Shown here: piece by piece, positions 33,496 through 64,000 of the stretch
Layout of the letters: each line of letters starts with the position of its first letter
Numbering within the stretch: the first letter of the stretch is position 1
DNA from: Quercus robur
Lineage: Eukaryota > Streptophyta > Magnoliopsida > Fagales > Fagaceae
Reading direction: 5' to 3'
NCBI RefSeq assembly: GCF_932294415.1
Contig: NC_065538.1
Span: forward strand, 52,488,343 to 52,552,342
Length of the DNA stretch: 64,000 nucleotides
Notes under the pieces: generated by a model
Database searches by the model: none
Seen by the model: only the letters and a program-made list of their open reading frames with translations
Told to the model about the DNA's origin: nothing
Program-made: the position numbers and the translations under genes

Positions 33496-33497
33496 TA

Positions 33498-41898: not shown

Positions 41899-41900
41899 GC
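41700..41900. repeat. Poly-T and TA microsatellites
   Basis: T runs at 41726-41744 and 41884-41898, and (TA)n at about 41853-41883, near the right end of the hAT element. Confidence 0.7.
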
Positions 41901-43500: not shown

Positions 43501-43711
43501 ATTTGACAATAAAAGGATAGTAGGATATTGGATTTATTTAGGCTTAGTGTAGATGCCAATTAAATATTAGAATAGTAGCCTATAGGTGTGCGGGTGTGTT
43601 TTGACATTTAGATTCATAGTAGGGTGCAGTGGAACAATATAAGTTTAGTACGTTTTTTATGTAATAAATTGGAGAAAAAAAATTAAAAAGTTAAGGAGGT
43701 CTTATTGTTAC

Positions 43712-44319
43712 TGTACGGCCCTGTGATATCCGGACACATTCGGGTTTCGGGCTTCAACTTGACAACATGGCCCGTATTGCCCCTAGGCCCAAGCCACAAG
43801 TCACCTTTAAGCCCATTGAACAAAATGATCTTCATCAATTCGTACCACGCTACACCTCTAGGATCCCATTCGGTGATTTGCTTCCCTAACAAGAAAGTGA
43901 TTGCTCAGTTGTATTGTCTCTCGGTTGCTCGGCAGTGCCGGGATTACCACTGCCGAGCATACCTCCTGAAGTGGGAACCATTTCCAAAGCCACTCCCACC
44001 TAAACACCCACCTACGATCAACGATATTGGACCTCCTATTGCACTAACTCTGAAAGCAATCATAATCCCTCCACTAATGCTTGGCTATATATATGAGAAG
44101 CTAAAGAAAGAGTGGGGGTTGTTGAAAGGTTCTGAGGGGAGCTTAGAACTGAGAGCGATAGAGTCACAAGAGTGTAGGGAAAAGAACACAAAGTTTTGAG
44201 AGTTGTTGTTGGGCCTCTGAGCAAGAATCACCCAGAGTAGGAAATCCAAAGCCCACATCACAAATAGATTGTGAGCCCAAGGTAGAGTCAGCCCATTAGT
44301 CTCATTTTGGGTGCACACA
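43712..44319 (+). mobile_element. Solo LTR of an LTR retrotransposon
   Basis: 608 bases beginning TGTACGGCCC and ending GTGCACACA (TG...CA), flanked by the 5-bp duplication GTTAC (43707-43711 and 44320-44324). A TATATATA promoter motif lies near 44087. Block A shows the uninterrupted site near 12150 (ACTATTGCAATATC). No internal domain remains, so this is a product of LTR-LTR recombination. The orientation is inferred from the TATA. The open frames inside are not genes. Confidence 0.88.
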
Positions 44320-45660
44320 GTTACAATATCAAATTTTATGTAATAAATTAATGAAACATGAAGTTAAAGGTATCTATTTATTACAATACTAAAGTATATG
44401 ACAAGGGGCGTGTGTGGTTCGGTTAAGTTGATTTTTTTTTTCCAAATTTGTAACTGAATCGATAAGTATTAGTTTCCTCATAACCAGAATCGATACACAC
44501 CACCAAGGGTCAATTTTTCAACCTACAGTGGTCCAGTTTATGAGGTCGGTTTAATTGGTTTGAAGATTTAATTTTTTTTTTTTTAAATGATTTGTTCTTT
44601 CAAGCCCAATATCCATACCTCAACCTGATCAAAACTTTAAGCAAATAAAAACTTCTATTTAGTTAACAAGCTCTCCAATTACATGGACAAGCTTAAACTC
44701 TAATTATTTAGCTAGCAACTTGTTAAATGTCCAATTGTCCATCTATCAAGTATTCATGAAAGAAAAAGTCCAATTATCCATACAACAACCATACATCATA
44801 CATAAAAAAATCATGTTCATACATGGTGAATGAAATAAGTTCCGCATATTTTATAAACTTGTTCATACATAAACGTATAAAACCCGTTGAAGTATTTATA
44901 CACAAAACAATTCAAATCTATTCGTACTTAATAAATTTCATCATTTCATTCACCATGTAAAAAAAAGTTTTGGAATTGCCTTAGCAAGAATTAAACTCCA
45001 AAACATCATGTAGCATATAATATCATTAAGTAACCATTCCATTTGTTGTTGTTCACAAATGCCAAAATAAAGATATATAAACTAAATTAGCATTTAAAAT
45101 ATAATAACTTAGCTCAATGAAATCAAAATAAATGGGTAGAGAATCTAAACTCTGAACTCCATACATAATGTAAAAGCTACTCAAATAGCATATATATCAA
45201 AGTAAATAAAAACACAATATTTATGCCCACAATAGTCTAAGCTAACTCTTTCTCTTTCTTTAGGTTTCTCAAAAAAAAAAACTCTCTTTAGCTAAATGTA
45301 TCAACAACAACAAAAAAAAAAAACAAAAAAAAAAAATTTATTTGTGTCCACAATATCCTACTCTCTCTACATTCACTCTTTTTTGTCATGATGGACAAAT
45401 GATGATCACTAAATATCATTAACAATTTGGAAGTGAAAATCAATAACAAAAATCAACTTTTTTTATTTATTTATGGGAAACAAAATCAACTTTTATTTTA
45501 CTTCAAACACAAGTGATTTTTAAAAAATATATTTATACTAATAAATTTAGTTTTTTTTTAGTGGGCTAAAAAATACTATAGTTTATATCAATTTAAAAAT
45601 TTTAATAATAATGGCCCAATTAAATGAGCATAGGCCCATATAGTTGAGCAGTGATCCAAG
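44320..45660. other. Block B intergenic, no gene
   Basis: Counterpart of A 12155-13470, with homopolymer A and T runs. Nothing coding. Confidence 0.5.
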
Positions 45661-47514
45661 GATTAACTAGAATATACTTGAAACAATGGGAATTTTTTCG
45701 AGTTCAGAATAATGGCTGTGCCCGTCTCTGTATGTGATGGAGGGTTGGACTAAAATGTTCTTCTTTCACATGATAGCTTATTTCACCAACTAGCTAGTTC
45801 AATATGCAAACCCAACAAGTATGTGCAAACAGATTCTTATCAGTCAAGCATGTCGGCCCACATCACCCTAGTGATGTTGCATCTGTGTTTTTTAAGTTAA
45901 AGCAAAGGAAAAATGGTTTTGCTGCTTCTATCATTTTCTGTGATTTGATTGGAGCAGCCAGAAGTGCACCAGTTAGCAAGAACTTGTTGCGTCCTTTTAA
46001 CATTACGTAAAGAAGAATTTGTGGTGTCTATATTTGTTAGGGGAATTCCACTGTAAGCATAAACTTCCTGTAGCTGAGTGTTTTGGCAATTGAAAGTGTG
46101 GTTGGTGGGGCATGCCTTCATTGGCCATGTACTTATGAATCAGGTTGAATGGATAAACGAAGTGGATGCACCAAGTAGGCCATTTACTAGAAATATAATT
46201 GGAGACTACTCCCTGGAAACCTAAAGATTTGAAGCATGGTGGTAGTTGAGCTTATCTATAATGGAAATCTAGCACTGGGAGATATCATTGTCGCTAATGA
46301 TGATAACAGGACATCTATAATTCTTATATCAGATATTAGCTACTTTGTCTGTTCTACTTGATACCTTCCTTGATTTTCACTTGGGTGCCTCGGCCAACCC
46401 ACAAAAGTAGTGGGGGAGAAGATAAATTTAAAGTCAAAAAAAAAAAATCTGTATGACCAAATAAAGGAGAATTTCTCTTGGGTCTAAAGTTCGGCTAATA
46501 CAAACTGCTTATTAAATGTTGGGATTTTGTTTTGGGAGACTAATAACTGGCTGATAGTTTCCTTCCGTCTTTAATTTCTTTCTTCATGGCATAGGTAGCT
46601 TGTGTGTGTGACATAACATCGTGAGCAGGGGCTCTTCAACACATGAACCGTGTACCGATTCTGGTCATTAGAATTTAGAACTTCTTGGTCGGCAATGAAG
46701 CATTTGCAACAACATTCAATGTCTTAATTTTATTCCTCTTTTTTCTTGATTTTATTGCGGTCATTGGTTGGTCAAGACTGTCCAGTCACCATCTAATTCT
46801 GATGCTTAGTAATCTAAGTTGCTGCACTTTGCTTGGTACCCCTTTGTGCTCAACTTGGACTTTTCCTATTAGGATGGTTACGTTTGTCATTGATCCATGC
46901 CTCTTGGAGTGAAGTCCATGGATGTCATGCACCAAAGGACCACCTCTGCCGTCCTGCTAAGAACAAGTCAAACAAGAGATGAACAAGAAGTTCCTAAAAC
47001 CTTTGCATCCTTCTCTTTACTTATTCATCAACTAGGTTAGATAATTTTACTTGGAAATTCCGCAATTCAAATGAGGTTGGGTATTTTTATGTTGCATCAT
47101 AGGCCTGCTTGTATCAATTCAGCCAATGACAATTATTCTAGAATGGCAACACTTTCTTATGAATGAGCAGTAAGCCAGTAACACAAACTTTAGTATTATT
47201 AGATTCTTATTCGACTTTACTATCTGATTTATTATTGAAGAAACGTACGGACATAGAATTATTTTTATATAATGAAATCAAAGTGAATAATACTACGTAA
47301 AAGGCTAATTTGAGAATTTTTAGCTCCTCCTTTTTGCCACTAGAGTTCCAATATTCTTCCAAATTTCGAGATCTTAAAATAAATTTCAAACTTTGTTTAG
47401 TTGGAATGATGAAAAAATAGGAAGATGGAAAATATTGGGATGATTGAAAAGATAGTTTCCATCATGTGTTTGGCACAAAAGATGAAAAAGTGAAAAGAAT
47501 ATTGAAAGAGAATA
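45661..47514. other. Segment unique to the B-C interval, no recognised gene
   Basis: Not homologous to A or C. The longest plausible frame, 45804-46010 (+), contains ANRFLSVKHVGPHHPSDVAS and VFFKLKQRKNGFAASIIF. It looks protein-like but is unrecognised. Another at 46139-46220 reads QVEWINEVDAPSRPFTRNII. These may be fragments of one decayed gene. Confidence 0.35.
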
Positions 47515-47740
47515 TATTAGGGTAAATTACATATTTGGCCCCTACTTTTTACACTCTATGTCAATTTGGTCCTTAACGTTTCAAATGTGCCAGTTTAGTC
47601 CCTAAACTTTTGTTATTGTGTCAAAATAGTCCCTATTATTAGATAATGGATGGAAAATACTGACGTAGCTAACGGTGATATTAAAATATTATTATTTTTG
47701 TCAACTAAGCTGCCACATCAACAGCCACGGGTCCTTAATT
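47515..47740. repeat. Dispersed repeat with 'TTTGGTCC / TTTAGTCCCT' motifs
   Basis: Starts GGGTAAATTACATATTTGG and carries TCAATTTGGTCC, CCAGTTTAGTCCCTAAAC and AAAATAGTCCCT. Sequences of this style are abundant repeats in plant genomes. No ends are defined. Confidence 0.45.
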
Positions 47741-49190
47741 TATATAAATAAATAAATAAAAAGAAATTAGAGGTTTGAATAATAGCATCTGTCTAATTGG
47801 TATCACTTGTGAACCTTGCGCCATGAATATCAATGGTTGTAAGTTGTAACAGCCTTGCTTGTTTGACGAAGATTGGGGTCCTGCTCCATGAATCTGGACA
47901 TTCGGCTTAGACAATCAAGTAGTTGCTGCATACATTTTGCCATTAATGTGGTTAGCTGAGTTGGTGCAGTGCATTAAATGTAGAGGTGATGGATGCTTTA
48001 TCTGGAAGTTTCCTCGCGTTGCTTGCATGCCTTTACTTCCTTCCTCGATCTTCAGTCCTATGGCCTTGGTAGTTCATCGACAGTCTCTCGAGGAGTGTAT
48101 GCTCCTCAGGCTCCTTGGGCGGGTCGATTTCCTCAGTTTCACTATCTGGATTATTCTTATTATGCTGGGCCTGAGATAATAAGTAGCCAGGCCTAACTGC
48201 TCCTTGGGCCGAATCTATTTGGTAATATTCCTTCTTTAAACCTCCCCCTCCCACAAATATTATTTCAACTTTTTTTTTTAAAGTACCAAATTAATACTTC
48301 CCATAAACATTACCTATAACATATACCAATGGCAAACTAGGTTGATGGCTTGTGGTCGACGATTATGCAGAATCTAGCTGCGAGATTAGCATTTATAGAG
48401 GTGGCGGCCAAGGGAATATATGAATGATTTGATGACAACTTGATTTGACCAAATCATCATGAACATTGGCCCTTTGCAGAGTCGTCGGATTGTAAGCGTA
48501 GATGATGATGCGAATGGATGAAGAGCTCGATCCACCTCGGTAGTGACTCAAATGGGTACAAAGGGGAAAAGTTGTAATTGCATCTCTAGCCCAAGTTTTC
48601 TCCACTTTCCTCCCAATTTGGAGAAATTGAGATTTGTGGGCCTAGGTGAAACCCACTCTATTTTCTTTCCCCTCTCTTTTCTCTCCTTAACCAAATAGTG
48701 AAAAACACCAATTTCCCTTATCCCCTTATTATTATTTTTTTCCATCCTCTCATTTTCACCCCAATCAAACGTAATGTCAATAATTCAGTGTATTTGGCTG
48801 TTAGCTTATAACAATTGATGTATGACACAAAAATTAACCTTGATTCAAACCTACTCAAATGGCTCCTAGGTTGGTAATTATAAAATGCTCTAGGAATACG
48901 ATAATATCGTTCTCCCTTCTTTTACATAATAGTTGGTCTCTTTAATTAAATTTATGATAGGACCCATTATTCATGGGAGAGAAAGAAGCACTATATTATT
49001 GTACTCTGGAAATATTATATAATTTTATAATACTTCAGTGAAAAATCTTAGTTCTATTATTTTATGTTTTTAATTTTCATGATATGATAGTCATGTTCAA
49101 GTTTATTTTTTGAAGCAAAATGGAACCATTCCTCATTGTTCTTGCCCTCTTACCTCCGAACATAATGATTGTATATAACGCAAACACTGT
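47741..49190. other. No recognised gene
   Basis: Frame 47993-48196 (+) reads YGLGSSSTVSRGVYAPQAPW and then FPQFHYLDYSYYAGPE, a Y/P/G-rich composition unlike random AT-rich DNA. I cannot name a family. The remainder is AT-rich and featureless. Confidence 0.35.
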
Positions 49191-49985
49191 CATATCTTAG
49201 ATGTTCTCTAGGACTCTCATATGTTCCCTTTACTACTTGTTACACTATTTATCATGTTCCCTTACCCGCCATTCACAACAAAACACAATGCAAACTTCTC
49301 TATGGCACCGTCCATGACTACTCACTTTCTATCTTTGGCTGTGCTTATTTTGTCACACTTCCTTCAGATGAACATTTCCAAATTGAGTCTCATTTCTTAA
49401 TTATGTTGCTTGCTTGGTTATGAACCCAAAAAGACTATCGTTACTACAACCTCATATTCAAATATCTTTGCATCTCCCATCATGTGGAATTTTGGAATCC
49501 AACCTGTCTGTTGTCTATGGAGTTTCAACCAATCTTCCTCTAATCTTCTATATTCATTAATCCTTCTATCACCCTCTATTGCAAGTCCTTAGAAGAACCT
49601 AGTAGGGATGCCAGCTCAAGGAATACTCCTTTTTAGGTCATTCTCAATGTATTTGATGTGTTTAATTTTGATCTTGCTAATTTACACAATTTTGAGCCTT
49701 CCTAAGCTCTTGATATTCGTCGCTCTGGTTGAGTAAGATCTTCTTCTTATCACCATAATGATTATTATTGTTTCTTTACTCTCTTCATGAGCATTGTACC
49801 TTCCGTGATACTACATTACTACTATTGACCCATTTTTGGCAGAAAGTTATGTTTGATAAGCTTAATGCCTTCCAAGGCATCTATGCTTTGAACATGGTTA
49901 ATTTACCTTATTTGTAAGTCTACAATTGGGTGTAAGTGAATCTACAAGATCAAGACACAGTTCGATGGATCAAAATTCTTAACTT
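49191..49985 (+). pseudogene. Ty1/Copia pol relic (integrase end to reverse transcriptase start)
   Basis: A chain of decayed matches in the copia order: LLYGTVHDYS followed by L-S-IFGCAYFVTLP (family form LYG..PDYS.LRVFGC.CFV.LP), then a LCISHHVEFWNP piece (family VSRHV.F.E), and later WQKVMFDKLNAFQGIYALNM followed by VNLPY (family W..AM..EL.AL....TW.LV.LP). Frames shift several times. Copia integrase and reverse transcriptase insert and copy the element; this copy is dead. No LTRs are recognised around it. Confidence 0.65.
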
Positions 49986-50747
49986 TGTACAAATCCAAAT
50001 CATAGATGAATTATATAATAGTACAACACAAAATGAAACAATATGAAATTGAAACCAATATAAAACTATAACAACTATCTAAGACAAACAAATTATAAAA
50101 TAACTGATATTTCATTGAGAACATATAGATAAAAATTGCACCTTGAATCATTTCCTAAATTAAACATCTCCTATACATTTCGAAAATCAAAAACAAAATC
50201 ACAATAAGAACAAGATTTATCATACAATAAGATCCAAGTACCTACAACTACAATACTGTGCAATCTATAATTTGAAATGCACATAGTAAGTTTCTCTTTC
50301 AATTTGAAGCGAAGTATTCAAAAACTTAAATATAACCTCCACACTTTCTGAGCAACCAAACAAAGACAAAAGCTGACATAATCAAAACTTGCAAAAGGTG
50401 AATGAAACAAAGATTGAGCAAAAATTTCATTGAGGTTACATAGAGCAAGATCCAATCCTTGTTTTCAAAATCATTTTTTCAAGAAACAAACAAATCGTAA
50501 GGAGAGATATAGTAGTTACCTAATGGATGAGAGAGAAGAGGTCGGACTAGACTAGCAAAAGGCAATTGAGCAATCCATCTTTTTCTTCTTCTTCCACTTC
50601 CTTACACCAATCCTCTTTCTCTGAAAAACTGAGATTCTTCATATCCAAGGGTTTTGAGAACCTTCCACCATTATTGTACTTGTTGTTTTTGTTGTTGGAT
50701 ACGTCTCTCAATGGCTTCCTTACCGTCTTCGACTTCGATTTCTCTTC

Positions 50748-50807
<60 letters not shown>

Positions 50808-50911
50808 TTGAATTTATTGTGAAAGGCGGGCTATTTTTATTTTGTGTGATTTTTCATTGTTCGGAGTAATGAGTCATGACTCGGAGTTGCACTCAACTAA
50901 GTTTGCTGAGG
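49986..50911. other. No clear gene; CT microsatellite near the end
   Basis: The plus-strand frame 50566-50811 is rich in S, F and L and runs into the CT repeat. It is probably not a gene. On the minus strand the GA run followed by purine-rich DNA could be a 5' leader. Confidence 0.4.
50752..50803. repeat. (CT)n microsatellite
   Basis: About 25 perfect CT units. Confidence 0.95.
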
Positions 50912-51130
50912 CAAAATTGGGAGAAATTATAAGATCCACGTGGTGGACAAGTGATGTGGTCTACCATTCCATTAAAAAACTTCCACCTGTTTAAAATTGT
51001 TAGTTAGAAAAATTTTTTAAACAGAAATTAATTACTGACTCAGCAATTTTAAACAAGTGGAAGTTTTTTAGTTGAATGGTGAACAAGTGTCGTGGTCCAC
51101 TAGAGGACTCTATAATTTCTCCAAAATTGG
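50912..51130. mobile_element. Fold-back (hairpin) element, MITE-like
   Basis: The left arm (50913-51000) and right arm (51044-51130) are inverted copies at roughly three-quarters identity. They share GAGAAATTATA at the outside and AAAAAACTTCCAC near the loop. No target duplication is clear. It could be a fold-back MITE or a source of small RNA. Confidence 0.6.
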
Positions 51131-51583
51131 GTAGGCTCAGACACTCGGTAGCATAGTTAGTAAGATATGTTATGAGTATAATATGGTAAGTATACGAATG
51201 GATATAATTCAGCATTTTTTTAATAAGTACGTTTTAAAAATTCGGCAAAAAAATACGTAAATGGGAAAATAACAGTATATGTATCTTACGTGTATAATAT
51301 GTTTATATTTTGAAACTTCGCAAAAAAAAAGGGATATATTTGTCATTTTATTTTGAGATAACTAAAATAATCCAACAAATTACAATCATATAGAAATAAT
51401 CTACTTAACAAAGAAAATTATTTCAATAACCGTATAGAAATTTCTTAACAATCTAACACATTACAGGACAAATACAAATATATTGTATACATAAAAACAA
51501 TAAATTCAATAAAGCAATACTAAATGATATATAGGTACATGAGAATGGATGCATATATAATATTAGATGAAAGAGATTTAGCA

Positions 51584-51584
<1 letters not shown>

Positions 51585-51616
<32 letters not shown>
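51585..51616. repeat. (AAT)n microsatellite
   Basis: About ten AAT units. It produces a meaningless poly-asparagine frame. Confidence 0.95.
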
Positions 51617-52608
51617 GTTTTATTTGTTTCGCTGGAAACCTTCTGTAAATATAGTTTTCCACATTTTCCAGTGTCTGGTAACATAAAAAAAATTGGTCAA
51701 TGGAAAACTATCTTTGGTCAACGGAAAACACTAATAAATATAAGGCTTATTTTCTATAGGTTGTTTTCCAATTTTTTATTTTTGAAAAGCAATCTCTCTC
51801 TCACGCGTTGTATCTCTTATAAATATTTTCTTTGTCTGTAGCTGTGAGAAACATAATTTTTTGGCTCATTCTCTCTCTCATGGTAAGCTTTTTCTCTTCC
51901 ATTTGCTTTTTCTCTCCTCACACTCTCACTATCACTAACTCTAGTCTCTCCTCTTTTCATAGATCTCTCTCTCTCTCTCTCTCTCTCTAACTGTCTCTCT
52001 TCTCTATTTTCTCCATGTTTCTTTTTCCTTCACTAATCCTTCAATAGCTCTGACTTGCAAAGGAGAACAAATTTGCAGCAGTAATTATTTCATTACTCTC
52101 TACCAAAATCCCAATTCTTTGCTTTGAATTTCAAGTTTGATTTTTTTTTTTCTACAAGAAATTTTTGGTTTGATGGATTCCAGGCAAAAGTTACTTATTT
52201 TTCGTACATAAAGTGCAAATAAATAAATAAATAAATAAATAAAGAAGAAGAAGAAGAAAGAATGAATGAAGTAAAAGATGAAAATTTTAAACATAGTACC
52301 TATATTGCTCTAAATTTCTTTTACATGGGACAGTCTTTTCCCTGGACTAATAATATTGTTATATAATGAATGATAATTGTTTAGGGGAATTGTATTTGTT
52401 GGCAAATACTTTTTTTTGTTGGCAGATACTTTATGCAAATACTATGTAGTGATGATATATTATACAATACATTATGTAAATACACAATTTAGAGTAATAT
52501 TGAAGACTTGTGGTTAACCATAGTAGGCAATTAGTATACCAACAAAAAGAGTAGAAAATTAAAAGTTATTGTCATTTATACTTATTGAAAATGTATTCCC
52601 CTCTCAAA

Positions 52609-52610
52609 TT

Positions 52611-52648
<38 letters not shown>

Positions 52649-52690
52649 TGCACACACAAATGGTTGATATCTATGTGTGTGTGTGTGTAC
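52609..52690. repeat. Compound TA / CA / TG microsatellite
   Basis: TATATA followed by CACACA, a short spacer, and TGTGTG. Confidence 0.9.
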
Positions 52691-53268
52691 GTACATACGT
52701 TACTGTCTATATATATATAAGCAAGATGAGTGGTAGAGATCATGAAAATTTGACAACTAATTAATTTTGATTGTATCTATTGTCAAAATTTTAGTATGAA
52801 AACCAAATTCATTCTTGGTTTTTTATTTATAATGATTACATTAGTTGGTTTACATAATATACATGTTTTAAATTATACAATAAATATTTTTTAAAAATTG
52901 CATACCAAACACCAAAAAACATTCTCAAACTCATTTTCAAGGTCGTTACCAAACACTGGAAAATGAGACAGTTTTTTAGAAAATGCTCTTTAAAAAATGA
53001 ACCATTTTCTAGAAAGCGTTAATGCTAAAACGTACCGAGCGTAATAATATAATTTAGAAACAATAAAATATGACAATAAAAGAATAGCAGGATATAAGAT
53101 TTATTTAAGCTATTAGAATAGTAGCCTATAGGTGTGCAGAGGTGTTTTGACACATAGATTCATAGTGGGGTGTAGCGGAACAATATAAGTTTAGTACGTT
53201 TTTTTATGTAATAAATTGGAGAAAAAAAAATTAAAAAGTTAAGGAGGTCTTACTATTACAAAATCAAA

Positions 53269-53284
53269 TTTTATGTAATAAATT
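53269..53284. repeat. Left target-site duplication of the LINE
   Basis: TTTTATGTAATAAATT, repeated at 54709-54724. Confidence 0.9.
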
Positions 53285-54708
53285 TTTTTTTTTTTTTTTT
53301 GAAAGCCACCTCAGTGATGTATCATGCATTAATATGAATAGAGTCAAAGTACAAAGCAGCTACGGCTGGGGGAGGGGAGTCTTCTATCCAAAACATCCCA
53401 TCAATAGTATTCTTAGCATGTCTAGCTAGTACATTAGCTACTTCATTACCCCCCCTCTTTACACTGTTAACAGAAAGCACTTGCAAACCACGCATAAGCC
53501 ATTTAATATCATCATAAATATTACCCAGCCAAGAGTGGTTCTTAGACGAAGAAGAAATAGTCCGCATAACAGTTTCATTGTCCCCTTCAAGCATCACGTT
53601 TGAGAAGCCTGCATCCACTGTGAACTCCAGCGCCTTCCTGCAAGCAAGAACTTCTGCCTCTTCGCTACAGGTAACAGGTGGTCCTTTAACAGACATAACT
53701 GCCATCACCTCCCCTTTATCGTTCCGGATAATTGCACCAAAACCTGAACAGTTCAACTCTGAAAAAATGTTGGCATCAAAGTTTACTTTATAGACAGAAA
53801 CTGGAGGAGGTTGCCAACTATTTCTTGACACCGTGGGAGTTGAAGTAGACAGCTGCACTTGAGAGTTATGAAACTCGTCCAAGAACTCAGTTGCTCTTTT
53901 GTTAAGCCAACCCGGTTCCTTAAAAGCCCCACCATGAACCACTGTATTTCTTTGATTCCATATAAACCAAGCCTGTACGAGAAATAGCTCAAACTCCGGC
54001 CGTGAAAGTCTATCCATAAGATCTTCAAACAGCTGCAAGGTGTCACGCTGGTTATTAGGAATTTTTTGAATTCTAGTCAAGCACCCCGCCCACACGTTTT
54101 GGGCAGCACCACACTCCCATAGTGCATGCACTCCTGTTTCAGGGCAGCTTCTACAGCAGTGACATAAGTTATCAGGGATAATTCTTCTTTTGGCTAGATT
54201 CACCCGGGTTGGGAGGATTTCCTGACAAGCTCGCCACCCAAACACCTTGATCTTATTAGGGACTCTAAGATGCCATAATTTCGACCAAACCCGCATACCA
54301 CTTGGACCAGACGAACACTATGTCCAGCCATCCTCTCCCAACAACCGTCTTGCCACCTGATACCCAGATTTGCAAGAATACACTCCATCCTTAGTGTGCA
54401 ACCAGTATAAAGAGTCCGGAACCTGTCTACGGCTCAATGGAATCCTGCAAATTGCCTCAGCATCTTCTCTATGGAAGCTTGACATGATTAGCTCTTTGTT
54501 CCACCAATTAAGGTCCGAGTCAATAAGATCTTCTACCATCCAATCCTCCTCCACCACGAGACTAGGATATAGCACTTTGTTAACAGGTTGGTTGGGTATC
54601 CATTTATCCAATTTAACTCTAATTGATGAGCCATTACCCACCCTCCAACAGCATCCTTGCTTCAGGATCGGCATTGCTGCCATTATACTTTTCCAAGTAT
54701 AAGAGCAG
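53285..54708 (-). mobile_element. 5'-truncated LINE (L1-like non-LTR retrotransposon)
   Basis: Minus-strand insertion of 1424 bases with a 3' poly-A tail (the T run from 53285), flanked by a 16-bp target duplication. Blocks A and B both have the single uninterrupted site (near 12167 and 44331). Only the last third of ORF2 is present, which is typical of incomplete reverse transcription. Confidence 0.93.
53322..54706 (-). pseudogene. LINE ORF2 C-terminus: zinc-binding region and RNase H
   Basis: The frame starts truncated at SYTWKSIMAAMPILKQG, followed by WRVGNGSSIRV, then the zf-RVT-type region (LWHLRVPNKIKVFGWRAC, and a C-H-C-C..C....H.LWEC cluster). It ends in an RNase H domain with the acidic residues D (VNFDAN), E (EEAEVLA) and D (LEGDN). 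The last conserved region reads NEVANVLARHA, with N where many members have D or H. One in-frame TAG at 54315-54317 interrupts the zf-RVT part; otherwise it is open to the stop at 53322. RNase H would remove template RNA during copying. The reverse transcriptase and endonuclease are absent. Confidence 0.9.
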
Positions 54709-54724
54709 TTTTATGTAATAAATT
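54709..54724. repeat. Right target-site duplication of the LINE
   Basis: TTTTATGTAATAAATT, identical to 53269-53284. Confidence 0.9.
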
Positions 54725-56925
54725 AATGAATCATAAAGTGAAGGGTATCTATTTATTACAATACTAAAGTCTATGACAAGGGACGTCCGTGGTCCGGTTA
54801 AATTGGTTTTTTTTTTTTTTTTTTCTTCTTCTTCTTCTTCTAAATTTGTAACTGAATTGATAAGTATCAGTTTCCCCATAACCAGAACCGATACACACCA
54901 CCAAGAGTCAGTTTTTAGATCTACAGTGGTGCAGTTTTATGAGGTTGGTTCAATCGGTTTGAAAATTTTTAAAAAAAAATTGGGCTTTCAAGTTCAATAT
55001 TCATACATCAACCTGATCAAAACTTCAAGCAAATAAAAATGTCTATTTATTTAGCAAGTTGTCTAATTACACAGACAAGATTAAACTCTAATTATTTAGC
55101 TAGCAACTTGTTAAATGTCCAATTGTCCATCTATCAAGTATTCATAAAAGAAAAAGTCCAATTATCCATACAATAACAATTCATCATACATAAAAAAAAT
55201 CGGGTTCATACATGGTGAATGAAATAAGTTCCACATATTTTATAAACTTGTTTATGTCATAAACTTGTTCATACATAAACAAATAAAACCTGTTCAAGTA
55301 TTTATACACACAACAATTCAAATCTGTTCATACTTGATAAATTTCATCATTTCATTCACCATGTAAAAAAAGTTTTGGAATTGCCTCAACAAGAATTAAA
55401 CTCCAAAACATCATGTAGCATATAATATCATTAAGTAACAATTCTATTTGTCGTTGTTCACAAATGCCAATATAAAGATATAAATTAAATTAGCATTTAA
55501 AATGTAATAATTTAGCTCAATGAAATCAAAATAAATGGGTAGAGAATCTAAACTCTAAACTCCATACATAATGTAAAAGCTGCTCAAATAGCATATATAT
55601 CAAAGTAAATAAAAATACATTATTTACACCCACAATAGTCTAAGTTAACTCTTTCTTTAGGTTTCTCAAAAAAAAAAAAAAAAAAAAAAAACTCTCTTTA
55701 ACCATATATATCAACCAAAAAAATATATATATATTTACGTTTGCAATATCCTACTCTCCCTACACTTACTCTTTTTTGTCATGATGGACAAATGGTAATC
55801 ACTAAATATCATCAACAATTTGGAAGTGAAAACCTATAACAAAAATTGTCTTATTTATTTATTTATGGAAACAAAAATCAACTTTTATTTCACTTCAAGC
55901 ACAAGTGATTATTTTGTTACAGTGTTTTCAGTTTTCACTTTTCAGTTTCAGCAACAATAAGCTCAATCCAAACGGACCCTATATATATACACACACACTA
56001 ATAATTTTTTTTTTTTTAGTGGGTTAGAAAATACTATAGTTTATATCAGTTTTAAAATTTTAATAATAATGGCCTAATTAAATAAGCGTGGGCCCATATA
56101 GTTTAGCAGTGATCCAAGTCCAAGTACAAAGTTCTTTTGAATTTCAAAACATGTTACTGTTGAGTTGAGCAACATTCAAAAATCCCAGGCCAAGCGATCC
56201 CCATATAGTTCTAAATAAGACTTTGTTTTAGATTTTGAAATCAGAGAGAGAGAGAGAGAGAGAGGGTTATTTTGTTCCGAAAAGTGATGTAGCAAAAGGG
56301 TGAGGAGTGCTATCTCCGTTTGCTTCTCATAAAAAACAGACAAAATCTTAACCCATTCACAGCACAGCTCTCTCTCTGTCTCTCTAAAATTTGTTTCTAT
56401 GCTTTGATCAAACTCAATTACTTTCTCTATTAATTCATTCTCTTTTGGACTGGGCATCATTGCTTTTTTTCCCTTTTATCATCTGGAAAAAAAAAAACAC
56501 TATAGAGTTTTTTTTTTTTTTTTTTTCATATTATTTTCTGCGTCTGTGACTATTCTTATGTATTCCTTTGTCAAAATTCAAAAGATCACTTTGTTTGTTT
56601 GATGGGGCAAAAGGGTTTTTCATTTTTCCACGGTCATGGGTTCTTGCGTAGGTATTTCTTAATTCAGAATTTGGACTTTGATTTTCTGTGATATTTTGAG
56701 CAACTATTAGATTAATAATTGATAACATAGATTTTTATTTTTAAAAATTGAAACAATTGCATGCTAATAGATTATTATCCCCAAGCTATATTCAAATATT
56801 AAAATGAGATTGTATCAAATTAATTTTCTATAAACAAAATTCTCAAGAATAAACCAAACTCAATAAATAATATTTCTAAGGATCTTATCAAATTCCTAAT
56901 TTGTCTCTGTAATCGTGATGAATGA
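54725..56925. other. Block C intergenic, no gene
   Basis: Counterpart of A 12175-14365. A truncated MITE-like tail lies near 55915-55980 (ends CCAAACGGACCCTA). GA microsatellite at 56243-56265. Confidence 0.5.
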
Positions 56926-57324
56926 ATTTCTATCACTAAAATAAAAATAAATTTTTATCGTTATAGAAGATGACATTTTTTAGTAGTAGACATTTTTTGG
57001 TAGTAATAATAAATAGGTATGAATAGAACAAAAGAGGGGCTTATATAACTTTTTTATAACCTTTTATATACTACCGCCCCCCTTTTTTTGTTCTATTCAT
57101 TAATTGAATTTAATTTGTTGATTAAGGCAAAGTTCCATAAAAACTCCCTCCTTCTTTGAAATATCATGAACAATTCCCGTAGGTTAAGCGCCCCTTTCAA
57201 GGAAATATAGAATAGCAGGAACATTTAAATAGATTTGATTCTTTAGCAGATCATAAAAGCCCACTTTCTGAAGAGTTCTTCCTTCTCTTCGGCATTGAGC
57301 ATCAATTGCAACGATTCGATAAAC
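56926..57324. mobile_element. Plastid DNA insertion (NUPT)
   Basis: About 400 bases, absent from block A, which has some 90 different bases at this place between CTGTAATGGTGATGA and ACTAGTTACTAATT. The insert contains chloroplast rps16 exon 2 and its 3' flank, with the typical AATAGAACAAAAGAGGGG. Insertion with loss of target bases fits end-joining capture of organelle DNA. The left edge is approximate. Confidence 0.85.
57100..57324 (-). pseudogene. rps16: Plastid rps16 exon 2, nuclear copy
   Basis: The minus strand from 57324 reads [16 protein letters not shown], then [20 protein letters not shown] and YFLERGA, then a stop at the codon where plastid genes have Q, then PTGIVHDISKKEG, ending at TAA 57100-57102. 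This is exon 2 of the chloroplast ribosomal protein S16 gene, 75 codons without a frameshift. Exon 1 and the group II intron are missing. One nonsense change (CAA to TAA) and several replacements show it is no longer functional. S16 belongs to the plastid 30S subunit. Confidence 0.92.
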
Positions 57325-58754
57325 TAGTTGGTAATTAAAAATTTCCTTGTATTTACAAGGAAAAAATATATGTATTTACACCCACAATAGGCTAAACTAA
57401 CTCTCTATTTAGCTAAATACATCAACCAAAAAAAAAAAAAATTATACCCCTAACCAAAAATATCCTACCCTCCTTATACTATCACTTTTTTTTGTTACAA
57501 TGAACAAAGATTGATCACTAAATACCATCGAAATCTGGAAGTGGAAACTTATCACAAAAATCAACATTGATTTCACTTCATAGATTTTTTTTAATATACT
57601 AATAAATTTAGTTTTTTTAATTTTTGTAGTGGGCTAGAAAATACTCTCGTTTATCATTTATTTCAGTTTTTAATTTTTAATAATATTGGGCCTTCGAGTT
57701 GGACCCAACTATCAGCAGCGGATCAATCACTTGGATCAACCACTTAAAAAGTTAAAACGAGAAAAGGCCCATAAGCTTAACATAATGAAAATACGAGTGA
57801 TCCAAGTCCAAAAATTTTTTGAATTTCAAAAAAATGTTACCGTTGAGAAATTAGGCTATATTAAAAATCCCGTTGAGCACAAAGCCTCTGTTTTCAAAGC
57901 TAATTCAGCAATGGAGGCGTTCGAGAAACTAAGAGAAAGCCTCTATTAATCAATTTAATGTTTAATTCTAATTCCAATTCGTGGGTTTCGGTTTTTTTTA
58001 GTATAGGTTTCTTGTGATTGCTATTCAATTCTCCTAAACGTTGAAAAGATTGTTTCCAATTTTGTCAGAAACAACACTGATCTCAATTCTCAAGAAATTC
58101 TCAAGAGGATATTCAAGTTATAGTCGTTAAGGTTATTAGTATCATACATTGAAAAGTCTATTGTTATCGGTTATGACTTATATTTCTCTCAAAGTACTCT
58201 GTCTTCTTATTCTATTCTTTATATGATCAAATTTTTTGGTGACTTTTTTGACGCAGAGTTTAATGTGGGTGTTGCTTTTTGCCCACGGTCATGAAATCTT
58301 GCACAGGTAATTTCCTTTAATTAAGGTTAAGATCCTTAAAATTATTAACATAAGTTGAGTCAGTGACTACTGAAAACAGTTTTGGTTTAAGGAAAATCTC
58401 ATGTATAGTATTTATAAAGAGAGAGTTAGTTTAGCCTATTGTGGGTTCATCGCACATGGTCTACACTAGGGAATTATTGGTTGGTATCATTAAAACTTAT
58501 TAAGTGAGAACATAATTTCATTTTGGATGCTATTAATGAGATTATTAGTAATTTCATTCAATAAGATTATACTGTAATTTCATACAATAATTAAGGTAAT
58601 CTCCAAATTTTCTCAATCTAAATGCTTCATTCATGTTTATACACAGTTTCAAGTTTGTGACTTGAAAAATAAAAATAATAATTTGATGGGTATGTTACAC
58701 TAAAATTTTGTATTTGTTATGTTGTGGCACTTTTGTTGAGTTATTTGGTTTAGA
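57325..58754. other. Block C leader repeat and decayed sequence
   Basis: Counterpart of A 14460-15110 up to about 57960, including CAGCAATGGAGGCGTTCG. Further on is a stretch like A 15286-15356 (ACAATAATTAAGGTAATCTC) just before the cyclin-L exon. No intact gene. Confidence 0.45.
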
Positions 58755-58906
58755 ATGATATACACAGCGATTAACAATTTCTACTTAACCGATGAGCATC
58801 TAAAGAACTCACCTTCTAGGAAAGATGGTATTGATGAAGATACTGAAACTACCTTACGAATCTATGGCTGTGATCTCATCCAAGAAAGTGGCATCTTGCT
58901 TAAACT
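58755..58906 (+). pseudogene. Cyclin-L exon 1 relic (block C)
   Basis: ATG at 58755 reads MIYTAINNFYLTDEHLKNSP, then SRKDGIDEDTETTLRIYGCD and LIQESGILLKL, ending at CT|GTATCC in phase 2. This is the start of plant cyclin-L (CYCL1/RCY1 type), the regulatory subunit of CDK11-like kinases acting in pre-mRNA splicing. It is open and well conserved, but no following exon is present: repeats begin 60 bases later. Block A instead keeps a later exon (15576-15654), so each block retains a different remnant of what was probably one gene. Confidence 0.8.
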
Positions 58907-58969
58907 GTATCCTGTTTTTTTTATTTCTTTATATGTTGGGTTTATGAAATTGTTTACTTTTCTTAAAAT

Positions 58970-59505
58970 TGTGATTGTACTCACACAGTCAACATTTGTG
59001 ACTTTGGGTTTCTCTTTTTTCTTTCTTTTGTCAGGGTCACATGGGAAAAGGTAGCGAAAAAGTTTGAATATGTAAAAACAATTCCCACTTCCACAGCATT
59101 TACACAATCAACAATTGTGATTGCACTCACACAGTCAACATTTGTGACTTTGGGTTTCTCTTTTTTCTTTCTTTTGTCAGGGTCACGTGGGAAAAGGTAG
59201 CGAAAAAGTTTGAATATGTAAAAACAATTCCCACTTCCACAGCACTTACACAATCAACAATTGTGATTGCACTCACACAGTCAACATTTGTGACTTTGGG
59301 TTTCTCTTTTTTCTTTCTTTTGTCAGGGTCACGTGGGAAAAGGTAGCGAAAAAGTTTGAATATGTAAAAACAATTCCCACTTCCACAGCACTTACACAAT
59401 CAACAATTGTGATTGCACTCACACAGTCAACAATTGTGACTTTGGGTTTCTCTTTTTTCTTTCTTTTGTCAGGGTCACGCGGGAAAAGGTAGCGAAAAAG
59501 TTTGA
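58970..59505 (+). repeat. Tandem repeat, 146-bp period, nearly four copies
   Basis: TCACACAGTCAACA recurs at 58981, 59127, 59273 and 59419, exactly 146 bases apart. Each unit holds TTTCTTTTGTCAG and GGTCAC(A/G)(T/C)GGGAAAAGG. The copies are almost identical, so the amplification is recent. The minus-strand frames over it (MCKCCGSGNCFYIF...) are repeat translations. Confidence 0.93.
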
Positions 59506-61080
59506 AACACAGGCAATACGTTATGGGTCGTGTTATGCCCATTAATACCCAGCTTTTTTGCAGTCTTTTACCCGGTTTTTAGGTGTTTTTTATCGGATGT
59601 GGTTCAGCTTTATTGGAAAAGAGAAAAATTATAAAGAAACCAAAATACCGTCATTCACGTCTCTCACGGTCTCACCAACTCAGGCGTAGTCAAGCACTCA
59701 AGCATCTCACACAAGAAAACAACACCAAATATCTTACAGGAAACAACCAACATATAACAAAAAAATAAAATAAAATAAAATCACAATCCTCAGGAAACAA
59801 CCAGCATTAGTATTTAAAAAAAAAAAAAAAAAAAACCATCTCACAGAAAAACAACCAACATCAGTACATCCAAAAAAAAAAAAAAAAAACCCATAAGAAC
59901 ATATGGGAGAACATAAATTTTTTTTGAGGGAGATGAATTGGGTTGATGGAGGGGAAATCAAGGAGGAGACGAACTGAGTTAGAAAAGAAAGCTGTGAAAA
60001 GAAAAATAGAAGACAAGGAAGTTCAGCCAAGAGTTTCATATGGGAGAAAATTTTAAAAGATGAGAAGGGAGAAGCAGAAAGGATGGGTAAGTGTAAGGGT
60101 GAAACAAAACCGTGTGGTTGAGAAAAAAAGGAGAAGTAAAAATAAATAGGTTAAAGTAAAAGGTGGCTTGATGGGATACGTGTCTATCATGGAAAGAATT
60201 TTACAAAATAAAAATTACAAATTGTATTACAATACAATATATTATCACAAATTTTTCACAATAGTTAAGTTGTCAAATCTTTCATATGTGAAAATAAAAT
60301 AATAAAATATTAGATTAGGATTGACCACAACTAAAAACAAAAAATATTGTGAAAATATTGTCACATTTTATTGTCAATAGTTATGTCATCAATAAATTTT
60401 TTAAATTCCAACTTTTTGTAGATTAAAATTATGCATAATATATGCACTTTATTTCCTCAAAAAAAATTATGCATACTAAAATATAAGTTTTTGTGGTTTT
60501 TGTGTTATTTACACAATATTTTCATAACAATTTCATAATAAAGTCTACGCAATAAGTTGTTATTAGTTTTTATCTGGATCTACTAGTGACATTAATATTT
60601 TTTTTATCTACCATTAATGAAAAAGAAAAACTAATGAAAAAAATATAGGAAGATCAATTACGAAATTAAAAGACGAAAAAAGAAGACGAAGATTTGTAAC
60701 CAAACAAATAAGGAAGGATAAGAGAACATAAATTCACAAGGGAACTCAAATTTTAAATTTTCTTTTTCAACTCTTTACCCTTTATTTATTCTACTATAAG
60801 AGGCTAGGGGTGTCAACCAAGTCGTCGATCCGCCAAAACCGAACTAATTCAACCTAACCTATTGGTTTGGGTTAGTTTTTAGAGGTTGATGAGTCGGTAA
60901 ATTTGCCTAACCCAATCCACCTATATTTAATATATATTTTTAAAAAAATTATTATTTATTCTTTTGTTTATCAATTGAGTTAGGATAGAGCTATATTAAA
61001 ACAAAAATTAAAAAAACAATCAACATCATATTATGTGATATATGAATTATATATTACAAATAAAATGAAAATAATAATAC
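59506..61080. other. Block C upstream region, no gene
   Basis: Counterpart of A 23640-25900 with deletions. It contains a short poly-A-separated minisatellite at 59740-59890. Confidence 0.5.
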
Positions 61081-61529
61081 ATTCTTGAGACAATTCATTT
61101 AAGTCAAAACAATCCATTGGAACAAATTTATGAGCCTCACTTGCATCTACATTGTCATACATTGGAGCTATATTAAAACAAGAGATTAAAATATAAACAT
61201 CATATTCTATGATAAATGAAATGTAAATTTATAAATAAAATAAAATTATAATACCTTCTTAAAGGGGTTCATTTAAGTCAAAATAATATTTTGGAGTAAA
61301 GTAGTGCTCTCACTTGCAATTACATTTCCATCCATTGATGCTATAATACATGTATTAGAAATAAAAATTAACATCATATTAATTTTGGTGCTATATAAAA
61401 ACAAGAGTTTAAAAATATTCTATGATAAATGAAATGTAAATCACAACTAAAATAAAATTACAATACCTTCATGAAGTGGTTCTTTGAAGTTAAAGCAATC
61501 TTTTGCAACTACACCCTCATCCATTAGTG
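61081..61529 (-). other. Exon-like DLNE array upstream of RLK2
   Basis: Minus-strand units at 61529-61467 (63 bases, in-frame 24-base loss, reads ALMDEGVVAKDCFNFKEPLH), 61340-61255 (86 bases, one-base deletion breaking the frame) and 61167-61081 (87 bases). They match the A array 25741-26176, bounded by ATAG/TATAG acceptors (GTAG in the 61529 unit) and GTATT donors. The unit corresponding to A 25741-25827 is deleted here, and an additional upstream unit is kept. The decay suggests a relic. Function unknown. Confidence 0.5.
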
Positions 61530-62024
61530 CTACAATATACATGTATCAAAAATAAAAATTAACAACATATTAATTTTAACCTATTTTTTAAAAATAACTA
61601 CGAATCAACTAAAATACAATAGTGGTACCTTGTTTAATTATTCCTCAATCAAAAATTGACATTTATTCATCTCTTCTTCTCTTTGATATTGGTAAAGGGG
61701 AAGAAGTTTAGTTTGCTATTGGTAAAGTGAAAGAAAATGGATGGTAAAATATTGGTAAAATAAGATTTAGTAAAAAATAAAAAGTGGAATGGAGGAAAAT
61801 GTGTTAAGAGTGCAATAGAAGGAAAAAGTGCCCTCAACTACTGCCAGCCGTGTCCCATATTAAGAGGGCAAATTTGTCCAATTTTTCCCCACAAGTCATG
61901 CCATACTTTTTCTCTAATTTACTCAATTTTTTTTATTTATGTGGGACGCACTTAAGGAGAACCTTAACAAACAAGCACCGGAACATTCTCCATAAACATA
62001 TACCGTAGAAGTCTCTTGTGAGTT
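61530..62024. other. RLK2 upstream region
   Basis: Includes sequence not present in A (61530-61750) and the promoter-proximal stretch conserved with A 26270-26520 (GTGTCCCATATTAAGAGGG). No W-box cluster or other clear element is seen. Confidence 0.4.
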
Positions 62025-62063
62025 ATGATAGCCTCTGATACTCCAAACTCCAGAGAGCCTTCT

Positions 62064-64000
62064 ATGTCTCCCTTCACACTCATGATGCTAACTAAAAGGC
62101 GATCCATTCTCCTGCTCTTGGCTTTTCTGTTAGTGCAACCATGCATACTTCACTTGTCTCACTCTTCCAACAACTTTACAGATCAATCAGCTCTCATTGC
62201 CTTCAAATCTGAAATCAGTTTTCATCCAAATGATACTATCTTCTCTGCTGGTAACTGGTCCACAACAACAAACTTCTGTGAGTGGTTTGGGGTCTCTTGC
62301 AGCCGACGCAGACAAAGAGTCACAGCCTTGAACCTTTCCTATGTGGATCTTCACGGCACCATCTCCCCTCATATTGGCAACCTCTCCTTCCTGGTCTCAC
62401 TTGATCTTCAAAACAACAGCTTCTCTGGTTTTCTGCCACATGAGATTGGTAACCTACACCGCTTGAGGGAACTTCGGTTGTCAAACAACCTATTGGAAGG
62501 TAGTATTCCTCCGACTCTACATAATTGCCAGAAGCTTGAAGTTTTATTTCTTTATGGAAACAACTTAAATGGTAGCATACCTGAAGATTTAGGCATGTTA
62601 CCAAGGGTTCGCGAAATGAACCTTAGTCAAAACAAACTTATGGGTACAATTCCATCGTCCCTCGGCAATATGTCGTCATTAGAGTTCTTGACTTTGGAAT
62701 ACAATAGCCTCACCGGTGCATTTCCTCTTGTCATCTTTAACTTGTCTTCTCTAAAGAGTATTGGTATTGGAGGAAATAACCTCTCAGGAACCCTTCCAGT
62801 GGATCTTTGTAGCCATTGTCCTAATCTTCAAGGGCTGTATATTACCGACAACAGATTCAGCGGTAAGCTCCCCTCACAGTTTAATAACTGCAGAGAGCTT
62901 TTAGATTTATCTCTATCATACAATATGTTTGATGGAAGTATTTCAAAAGGTTTTGGGAGTTTAAAAAAGCTTGAAAGCCTCTATCTTGGAGGTAACAACT
63001 TAATTGGAAACATTCCTCCTATCATAAGCAATTTATCGATGTTACAAGGGTTTTATGCTGAAAGAAACAACATTAAAGGAGGCATGCCAAGTGATTTATG
63101 GCGTCTCCACAATCTGAAGAAACTGTATATTTTTTATAACGATCTCACTGGGACAATACCCCAAAATATTTTCAACATTACCTCTCTACAAACACTCAAC
63201 TTGATGGGTAATTCCTTGTCTGGAAATCTTTCATTAGATACTAGGATCCCTTGCCCTAATCTTAGAAGGTTGCTTCTTGATGACAACAACATTAGCGGTC
63301 GTATCCCATCATATCTTTTAAATTGTTCCAACCTCGTCTTAGTAGATTTATCTGGAAATTTACTCTCTGGGCCTATACCTCGTCTTGGAAACTTGAAATA
63401 TCTCAATTACTTGGGTCTAGGTGATAATCAACTAACAGAGGAGTCTGGGCATCAAGAGCATAGTTTTCTTACATCTTTAACCAGTTGCACATCTTTAGAG
63501 TTGCTAGATATTTCCACCAATCCCTTGAATATTACAATTCCGGAAACCATTGGAAATTTTTCGGCTTCGCTTAAAATCATTAGTGCAGGTCAAAGCCAAA
63601 TAAAGGGTCAAATTCCAATGGGAATCGGTTCCTTGAAAAATTTGACCTTGCTTGATTTGAGCTATAACAATTTGTCTGGAAATTTACCGTCAACATTAGG
63701 GGGATTAGAGGAATTGCAAAGATTGCATCTTAGTGACAATAATATTGGAGGAAACATTCCAGAAGAGCTTTGTCAACTAAACAAGCTGGGAGAACTACTT
63801 CTCTCAAATAACAAAATTTCTGGATCCATCCCGAATTGCATTGGAAACCTCAATCTTTTGCAGAGATTAAACTTGAGTTATAACAAACTGACATCATCAA
63901 TCCCATTGAATGTGTGGAATCTTGAAAATATGTTGTTCTTGGATTTATCATCAAATTCCCTCTACGGATCTTTGTCTCCAAACATGAAAAAACTCATTGC
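62064..64000 (+). CDS. LRR receptor-like kinase, subfamily XII type (RLK2), cut by window end
   Basis: Open from ATG 62064 to the window edge (645 codons). It covers the signal peptide, LRR N-cap and LRRs 1 to 23; the kinase lies outside. It is almost identical to RLK1, with about 17 amino-acid differences and only about six silent ones by eye. Most are in LRRs 4-8, at exposed positions of the LxLxxN strands (for example IALNSN to MNLSQN, LYLHDN to LTLEYN, ISIGLN to IGIGGN, YISHN to YITDN). Here an in-frame upstream ATG at 62025 could add 13 residues (MIASDTPNSREPS); RLK1 has GTG at that place, so 62064 is the start shared by both. It is likely a cell-surface immune receptor with a ligand range different from RLK1. 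Integrity of the 3' half is unknown. Confidence 0.88.
   Translation, partial: MSPFTLMMLTKRRSILLLLAFLLVQPCILHLSHSSNNFTDQSALIAFKSEISFHPNDTIFSAGNWSTTTNFCEWFGVSCSRRRQRVTALNLSYVDLHGTISPHIGNLSFLVSLDLQNNSFSGFLPHEIGNLHRLRELRLSNNLLEGSIPPTLHNCQKLEVLFLYGNNLNGSIPEDLGMLPRVREMNLSQNKLMGTIPSSLGNMSSLEFLTLEYNSLTGAFPLVIFNLSSLKSIGIGGNNLSGTLPVDLCSHCPNLQGLYITDNRFSGKLPSQFNNCRELLDLSLSYNMFDGSISKGFGSLKKLESLYLGGNNLIGNIPPIISNLSMLQGFYAERNNIKGGMPSDLWRLHNLKKLYIFYNDLTGTIPQNIFNITSLQTLNLMGNSLSGNLSLDTRIPCPNLRRLLLDDNNISGRIPSYLLNCSNLVLVDLSGNLLSGPIPRLGNLKYLNYLGLGDNQLTEESGHQEHSFLTSLTSCTSLELLDISTNPLNITIPETIGNFSASLKIISAGQSQIKGQIPMGIGSLKNLTLLDLSYNNLSGNLPSTLGGLEELQRLHLSDNNIGGNIPEELCQLNKLGELLLSNNKISGSIPNCIGNLNLLQRLNLSYNKLTSSIPLNVWNLENMLFLDLSSNSLYGSLSPNMKKLI

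Follow-up and report, generated by a model that had tools for sequence, protein, structure and literature searches.

Two recently duplicated putative receptor kinase genes of Quercus robur differ mainly at exposed positions of LRR4-8, probably through recombination among older family variants

Trees live for centuries, and microbes are short-lived. In the rice Xa21 family, tandem XII-type kinases exhibit recombination breakpoints in the conserved 5' coding end, promoter exchange, and adaptive change in the leucine-rich repeats (LRRs). Here, we describe a similar locus of Quercus robur, a stretch of 64,000 nucleotides (contig NC_065538.1, positions 52,488,343 to 52,552,342 of the forward strand; hereafter the window) carrying two putative LRR receptor kinase genes, RLK1 and RLK2. 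The two genes are nearly identical from close to the start codon onward except for islands of divergence, the main one in LRR4-8. We consider it probable that these islands derive from older diversity of the family, which patchy ectopic recombination either introduced or left in place, rather than from point mutation since the duplication. The rice genes are different members from a different plant, and the likeness is one of description.

According to the main text of Plomion et al. 2018 (PMC6086335), Q. robur has 102 copies of XIIa LRR receptor-like kinases (LRR-RLKs), and positive selection was detected in 19 of 24 expanded oak LRR-RLK groups, with >78% of the 260 sites in LRR domains and mostly at four residues of the LXXLXLXX strand. 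That work concerns the same species, and the same four strand residues are selected in the present array; its main text has no mention of gene conversion or recombination. Relative to that text, the duplication age, the promoter switch, and the LRR-level mosaic of RLK1 and RLK2 are added here. A comparable array in print is the Arabidopsis OAK receptor-kinase cluster (Smith et al. 2011, PMC3136440), the name of which is unrelated to oak trees and which is alike by description. No title on the RLK1-RLK2 pair was found in the open-licence literature, which does not show that none exists. The pair adds a clear case to a known kind, and its duplication, breakpoint, and mosaic are resolved to the extent that one haplotype permits.

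The two genes occupy the following positions.
26561..29572, + strand: RLK1 exon 1, an open frame encoding LRRNT, 27 LRRs, a predicted membrane helix, and the first part of the kinase
30851..31207, + strand: RLK1 exon 2, the remaining kinase, in frame from EYGSEG to NRGV and the stop; its start is approximate
62064..64000, + strand: RLK2 exon 1, interrupted by the window end and open to codon 1004

RLK2 exon 2 is in frame beyond the window. A codon-by-codon comparison found differences at 23 of 645 codons, comprising 17 replacements and 6 silent changes with no indel. The differences are strongly clustered, with 16 of the 22 differing codons among codons 1-644 falling within 96 codons, an arrangement as extreme as which did not occur in 20,000 shuffles.
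62583..62870, + strand: RLK2 divergent tract, codons 174-269, LRR4-8; 8.0% different from RLK1, against 0-1.2% in the other blocks to codon 644
27080..27367, + strand: RLK1 counterpart of the tract, from the codon comparison

The tract contains 13 replacements and 3 silent changes (23 of 288 bases), and six of its codons have two or three changed bases (GCA/AAC, TCA/CAA, CAT/GAA, TAT/ACT, TCT/GGT, and TTA/GGA). Eleven of the 13 replacements are located at the four exposed offsets of the xLxLxxN motif, which make up only 16 of the 96 codons (hypergeometric P = 3e-9). With LRRs numbered by the N of LxLxxN (N190 = LRR5), these replacements are at offsets -6, -4, -2, and -1 in LRR5, -4, -2, and -1 in LRR6, -4 and -1 in LRR7, and -2 and -1 in LRR8; the other two are K174E, behind the IP turn, and I185M, at a buried L position. 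Within the tract, 19 of 48 exposed bases and 4 of 240 frame bases differ, compared with 1 of 216 and 5 of 1,428, respectively, in the rest of codons 1-644, such that the tract stands out sharply from its flanks at exposed codons but only faintly at frame codons. The initial annotation, made from the sequence alone, had estimated about 17 replacements and six silent changes, which are the exact totals, and had placed some ten replacements at variable positions of LRR4-8; the clustering and the positions are borne out with the count raised to 13, and three more multi-base codons join the three (GCA/AAC, TCA/CAA, and CAT/GAA) it had listed. Its description of the flanks as nearly identical holds from near the start codon on; the 1,200 bases upstream differ by 13.3%, and a second divergent patch occupies codons 645-672.
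63996..64000, + strand: start of the second divergent RLK2 patch, which lies mostly past the window end

This patch consists of plain substitutions after codon 644 without an indel. N660 of RLK2 is also found in copy L019 of the gene family described below, N660 together with I661 in four distant copies aligned, and G672 in L011, L014, L018, and L019.

The products are assigned to a receptor class as follows. LRRNT_2, LRR_1/LRR_8, and Pkinase all matched above the Pfam cut-off, giving LRRNT, a long LRR run, and a kinase in one protein, and 26 repeats of the 24-residue LRR type could be aligned on their N (S in one), in addition to one preceding repeat. The E codon at the start of RLK1 exon 2 is apparently split by the intron, and the C-terminus encoded by this exon is that of Q. 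robur proteins except for single residues. All 11 family copies with an open exon 1 have HCDLKP, with HCD replacing HRD, and the kinase is therefore of the non-RD type, a mark of LRR-RLK subfamily XII. Relatives named Xa21-, EFR-, and FLS2-like, as well as Rosa proteins named RLK-Pelle-LRR-XII-1 (e.g., P0053), were among the 120 listed of 5,356 database matches, a likeness in naming. Judged from sequence, RLK1 and RLK2 thus appear to be XII-type (FLS2/EFR/Xa21-like) LRR receptor kinases, an immune-receptor class, in a tandem array. An AlphaFold2 model, with a mean predicted local distance difference test score (pLDDT) of 79.8 and poor values in the kinase part, scored at least 90 across the greater part of the LRR domain and placed strands at residues 184-186, 208-210, 232-234, and 257-259, with the variable residues on or directly behind them. 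The nearest solved structures include the GSO1, FLS2, MIK2, and PEPR1 ectodomains; the likeness to FLS2 and PEPR1 (PDB 4mna, 4mn8, 5gr8) is one of fold, with other LRR receptor ectodomains within a few Z units, and says nothing on function.

For the pair alone, the ratio of nonsynonymous to synonymous substitution rates (dN/dS) in the tract was 1.68 (NG86, the Nei-Gojobori method; dN 0.093, dS 0.055), which is not significant (Fisher P = 0.32), and a claim of selection therefore cannot rest on RLK1 and RLK2 alone. We accordingly turned to the copy family, which comprises RLK1 and 11 further copies with 93.6-98.6% identity to RLK1, all on the contig of the window (C5). Ten of the twelve are located at 51.76-52.69 Mb and two at 63.55 and 63.60 Mb. 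The search scored 40 of 69 candidates in the assembly (785.7 Mb, 42 contigs), and the family counts are lower bounds. Exon 1 is open in 11 copies; codons were not counted in the frameshifted copy L020, and the usual first ~53 codons find no match in L018. More distant copies (81-83%) are present on C1, C2, and C4, with broken pieces on C3. The translation of L014 exon 1 agrees with the Q. robur protein P0003 at all 1004 residues.

Across all 55 pairs of the 11 open copies, dN/dS was 3.33 at the 104 exposed codons (dN 0.249, dS 0.075), 0.39 at the 547 other LRR codons, and 0.30 outside the LRRs (codons 60-89 and 741-1004); dN exceeded dS in 200 of 200 bootstraps for exposed codons and in 0 of 200 for other LRR codons. 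In the tract, the family values were 4.87 for the 16 exposed codons and 0.48 for the 80 others. Resolved by LRR, the exposed ratio was 7.4 in LRR5-18 (0.468/0.063) and lower in LRR2-4 (0.154/0.062), and diversity was nearly nil in LRR19-27 (0.033/0.103). Each exposed offset varied in 14 to 17 of the 26 LRRs, other offsets in no more than 10, and the N in none. A three-class site model was favored over a two-class model for codons 60-1004 (twice the log-likelihood difference, 496), with 36 of the 37 called sites at exposed offsets, although this model was home-made and used one tree per region despite recombination, which can mislead such models. Its upper class lay at the grid edge (12) in three of four regions, and we therefore relied on the class contrast alone. 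In LRR19-27, the model also called codons 645, 648, and 672, which correspond to the second divergent RLK2 patch.

Family-wide positive selection at exposed positions is thus strongly supported. The proposal in the initial annotation that positive selection shaped the pair stands for the family, for which dN/dS computed by site and by LRR is above 1 at exposed sites and well below 1 elsewhere in the LRRs; it is not significant for the pair by itself and fits poorly as an event after the two genes separated. Because family diversity is concentrated at exposed positions, the observation that the two genes differ almost only there fits the whole array. A loss of constraint, with LRR4-8 free of selection in one copy, is scarcely credible: beyond the number of replacements, nothing speaks for it, and the replacements hit 11 of 16 exposed codons compared with 2 of 80 frame codons, the family ratios in the tract are those of constraint in the frame (0.48) and its opposite at exposed codons (4.9), and exons 1 and 2 are open in both genes.

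The next question is the age of the tract relative to the duplication. Positions 26401-47932 match 61908-83457 at 98.3% identity and 47933-52614 match 85097-89765 at 96.7% (coordinates extended past the window). Since the sequence behind RLK1 is repeated behind RLK2, the pair belongs to a recent duplication with a repeat unit of ~35 kb.
26401..52614, no strand: RLK1 copy of the recent tandem duplication; its partner runs from 61908 to 25.8 kb past the window end

The duplicated blocks differ at 255 of 26,084 aligned bases (0.98%). The tract is the top divergence island of the 26 kb, with 22 differences per 289 bases against a median of 2 and a 95th percentile of 8, and none of 5,000 random placements reached 22 (maximum, 15). 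The next islands have 15 differences (positions 30634-30922, an intron stretch) and 11. The tract exposed codons of RLK1 and RLK2 differ at 0.396 of bases, compared with a median of 0.312 in the other 44 pairs of ten copies, 40 of which are below the pair; in codons 270-644, the exposed codons of RLK1 and RLK2 are identical, whereas the medians of the other pairs in three blocks are 0.21, 0.33, and 0.07. Set against those pairs, the body of RLK1 and RLK2 outside the tract is unusually similar as far as codon 644, and the tract falls within the spread of the family. The 4 differing frame bases in the tract are raised relative to the rest of the coding sequence (P = 0.03). The tract thus seems to predate the duplication, suggesting that recombination combined receptor variants already at hand in place of a wait for new mutations.

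Selection on new point mutations after the duplication could also place 11 of the 13 replacements at exposed codons, where the family ratio is 3.3, and it would leave the frame bases near the block background, which they do not clearly exceed (P = 0.17). We nevertheless regard it as an improbable origin of the tract. At the 0.9% divergence of the block, 2.6 differences would be expected and 23 were observed; silent changes are raised as well (3 against 0.6 expected; P = 0.02); the exposed codons would require a dN/dS near 78, with several codons changed at two or three bases; and other copies already carry 14 of the 16 differing RLK2 codons at the corresponding position.

Comparison of the 5' flanks with those of other copies indicated where the two genes were joined. 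Upstream of the genes, RLK2 differs from L012 by 0.9% and from L015 by 1.9%, and RLK1 differs from L013 by 2.2%, in contrast to the divergence between RLK2 and RLK1 given above. At the sites separating RLK1 from L012, RLK2 is L012-type at 103 of 106 upstream positions, ending at -50, and from coding base 75 on, the first 11 separating sites are all RLK1-type; over codons 1-644, RLK2 is RLK1-type at 88 separating bases and L012-type at 16, 12 of which lie in the tract. The nearest relative of RLK2 switches between promoter and body, as unequal crossing-over in a tandem array demands.
62014..62138, + strand: RLK2 5' recombination breakpoint interval, with an L012/L015-type promoter to -50 and RLK1-like sequence from coding base 75

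Given this promoter exchange, expression of RLK1 and RLK2 may differ. Within the tract, individual LRR faces of RLK2 matched different copies.
62613..62630, + strand: RLK2 LRR5 face, codons 184-189; the four exposed codons equal L015, and buried codon 185 is different
62691..62702, + strand: RLK2 LRR6 face, codons 210-213 (the cassette includes 208); the four exposed codons equal L012
62763..62774, + strand: RLK2 LRR7 face, codons 234-237 (the cassette includes 232); the four exposed codons equal L017
62844..62849, + strand: RLK2 LRR8 exposed codons 261-262 (S to T, H to D), a face without an exact match in other copies

RLK2 and L017 have no base difference in codons 221-243. Exact face matches in LRR5-7 were found in 3 of 30 comparisons for RLK2 and in 0 of 135 among the other ten copies (Fisher P = 0.0055); when LRR8, omitted post hoc, is included, the counts are 3 of 40 and 1 of 180 (P = 0.02). 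The nearest matches of RLK1 in the tract, each one base away, are L011 over codons 210-220 and L015 over codons 234-243. Of the 16 differing tract codons, 14 in RLK2 and 9 in RLK1 recur at the corresponding position in one or more of the 9 other open copies, leaving 2 and 7, respectively, without a match. Two of the three face matches of RLK2 fall in the lineage of its promoter type, and the island could, to judge from these matches, be the remnant of a gene formerly at this site.

Recombination is also apparent in the array as a whole. A test of the pairwise homoplasy index (PHI) type gave P = 0.0002 for all sites, and P = 0.003 and 0.0004 for frame codons (0.005 and 0.0004 without RLK2 and L018). 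Elsewhere in the array, L012 and L016 are identical across codons 781-1004 (672 bases, mostly kinase), whereas 61% of their 56 exposed residues of LRR5-18 are different. Eight of the 55 pairs differ by <0.8% in codons 781-1004, and seven of these differ at 50-61% of the 56 residues; the remaining pair, RLK1-RLK2, differs at 20%.

Several results speak against older variants as the source of the islands. No whole-tract donor for either gene was found in the whole assembly, which represents one haplotype (best match 95%, 20 places scored for each), and none for RLK2 codons 640-680 in the whole assembly and in a local comparison of 19 loci (best match 96%). The face matches comprise four codons each, with LRR8 unmatched, and repeated selection of the same residues is a possible source of them. 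The PHI-type test was weaker on silent sites (P = 0.012 and 0.035; without RLK2 and L018, 0.079 and 0.049). The similarity of neighboring LRR faces was correlated at 0.106 among all 11 copies, a value reached in 23 of 2,000 permutations, but the correlation vanished without RLK2 and L018 (-0.034), which fits reshuffling and also saturation. The differing frame bases of the tract do not clearly exceed the 2.2 that the 0.9% of the block would give (P = 0.17), and a full-length tract at the family median of 3.3% would be expected to hold more of them (7.9; P = 0.10); in line with this, frame codons differ at 0.017 between RLK1 and RLK2, against a median of 0.033, with only 11 of the 44 other pairs below. 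Because the frame is only slightly raised, the case for an old tract is carried mainly by the exposed codons and the silent changes. This low frame divergence speaks either for short patches or for more room for selection on new mutations, and of the recombinational possibilities, short patches therefore fit better than one long tract.

The initial annotation had also proposed conversion from a third paralogue bearing the RLK2 version of LRR4-8. Recombination is indeed the better reading of the pair; a single donor was absent from the assembly, and the tract resembles different copies LRR by LRR. A protein search with the RLK2 tract returned one exact match among the 120 listed of 1,527 (database clustered at 90%), the Q. 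robur protein P0001 (isoform X2), which is identical to RLK2 throughout codons 1-330 and thus across the whole tract. It was rejected as a third-gene donor, since it follows RLK2 without mismatch through codon 330 and L017 without mismatch beyond codon 305. RLK2 and L017 are 37 kb apart on the same contig, and P0001 appears to be RLK2 joined to L017, in a gene model or a transcript, and no third gene. It could reflect an annotation that fuses the two genes, genuine read-through transcription, or a different haplotype; GGAG/GTAAC within the stretch common to RLK2 and L017 could supply both splice sites. All these comparisons concern one haplotype of one assembly.

The block divergence of 0.98% equals the heterozygosity of Q. 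robur (~1%, as stated in the main text of PMC6086335), which makes former alleles in tandem a live alternative. Unequal crossover between homologous chromosomes would have placed the alleles side by side, and the tract would be old allelic polymorphism; this is possible although doubtful, and it overlaps with recombination of older family variants, the two not being exclusive. The Q. lobata protein P0002 has RLK1 as its nearest copy both in the tract (10 differences, against 12 for the second nearest) and in codons 531-760 (7 against 9), and carries K184 and H262, RLK1 residues found in no other of the 11 open Q. robur copies, so that the RLK1 variant may predate the species. In codons 340-530, however, P0002 is nearest to L016 (21 differences, compared with 28 for RLK1), and the RLK2 promoter is that of another copy type. 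The same allelic level of divergence, and the difficulty of assembling such arrays, would suit an assembly artefact, in which both haplotypes of a single locus were placed one after the other or similar copies were merged into a chimera. We hold this to be very unlikely, since identity along the unit drops from 98.4% to 92-96% and the longer upstream stretches of RLK2 resemble those of RLK1 at 81-91% (one 416-base piece, 96%), a pattern less to be expected of two alleles, and since RLK2 has an in-frame exon 2 past the window.

Under the favored explanation of older variants redistributed by ectopic recombination, the diversity would have been built over a longer time by positive selection on the exposed residues of the beta-strands in LRR5-18, with constraint maintained on the LRR frame, the last LRRs, and the kinase. 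As the alignments directly indicate, the gene body and 3' flank were duplicated recently within the ~35 kb unit, a join in the ~125 bp interval around the start codon places an L012/L015-type promoter before an RLK1-type body, and LRR4-8 and codons 645-672 are far more different than the rest of the body. The ectopic recombination would have proceeded by gene conversion or by unequal exchange, among copies or among haplotypes, and would probably have affected short patches around individual LRR faces. RLK1 and RLK2 would, on their sequences, be predicted to signal alike and to present different recognition surfaces in LRR5-8. More speculatively, and with little likelihood in our judgment, the array may act as a germline store of interchangeable LRR faces, with single-LRR cassettes of ~24 codons or less swapped between copies. 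If so, three successive RLK2 LRRs would come from three copies, a uniform frame, co-receptor end, and kinase would be refitted with new combinations of old selected surfaces, and tandem duplication would also fix former allelic surface variants side by side.

The pair suggests how new receptor surfaces can be assembled from existing variants within one locus, with the signaling part held constant. RLK1 and RLK2 form a natural pair with nearly one frame and two LRR5-8 faces, useful for mapping LRR binding. They also call for caution in that dN/dS between recent paralogues may mirror imported old diversity and not selection after duplication.

Beyond the recent duplication, an older one is visible in a self-comparison of the window.
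7162..63996, no strand: older tandem duplication, 7162-28493 against 36191-63996

Outside the RLK genes, its longer pieces are 80-91% identical and two short ones 93-96%. A search of a plasmid collection, uninformative for a plant, returned no match. The RLK1 intron stretch 30634-30922 includes ~60 gap columns, with a dinucleotide-like run in the region, and outside the pair, the RLK1 version is best matched by L019 and the RLK2 version by L016. The frameshifted L020 (G000:C5:63603546-63606665) is apparently dead, lies 56 kb from L014 in a second array at 63.5-63.6 Mb, and is nearest to L019 in both flanks. Two truncated RLK 5' ends stand in a row before L016 (G000:C5:52058406-52058681 and 52060251-52060527; L016:1121-1355 and 2967-3201), both ending at coding base 235 of the gene, and the RLK 5' end looks, from these remains, like a repeated breakpoint of the array. 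Elsewhere in the window are an 837-codon open frame with a plant mobile domain (PMD) match (3026-5539, - strand), a retroelement remnant with RVT_3 and zf-RVT domains (53322-54317, - strand), and a short tandem repeat (58967-59506) with a period of ~146 bases and copies 98-99% identical.

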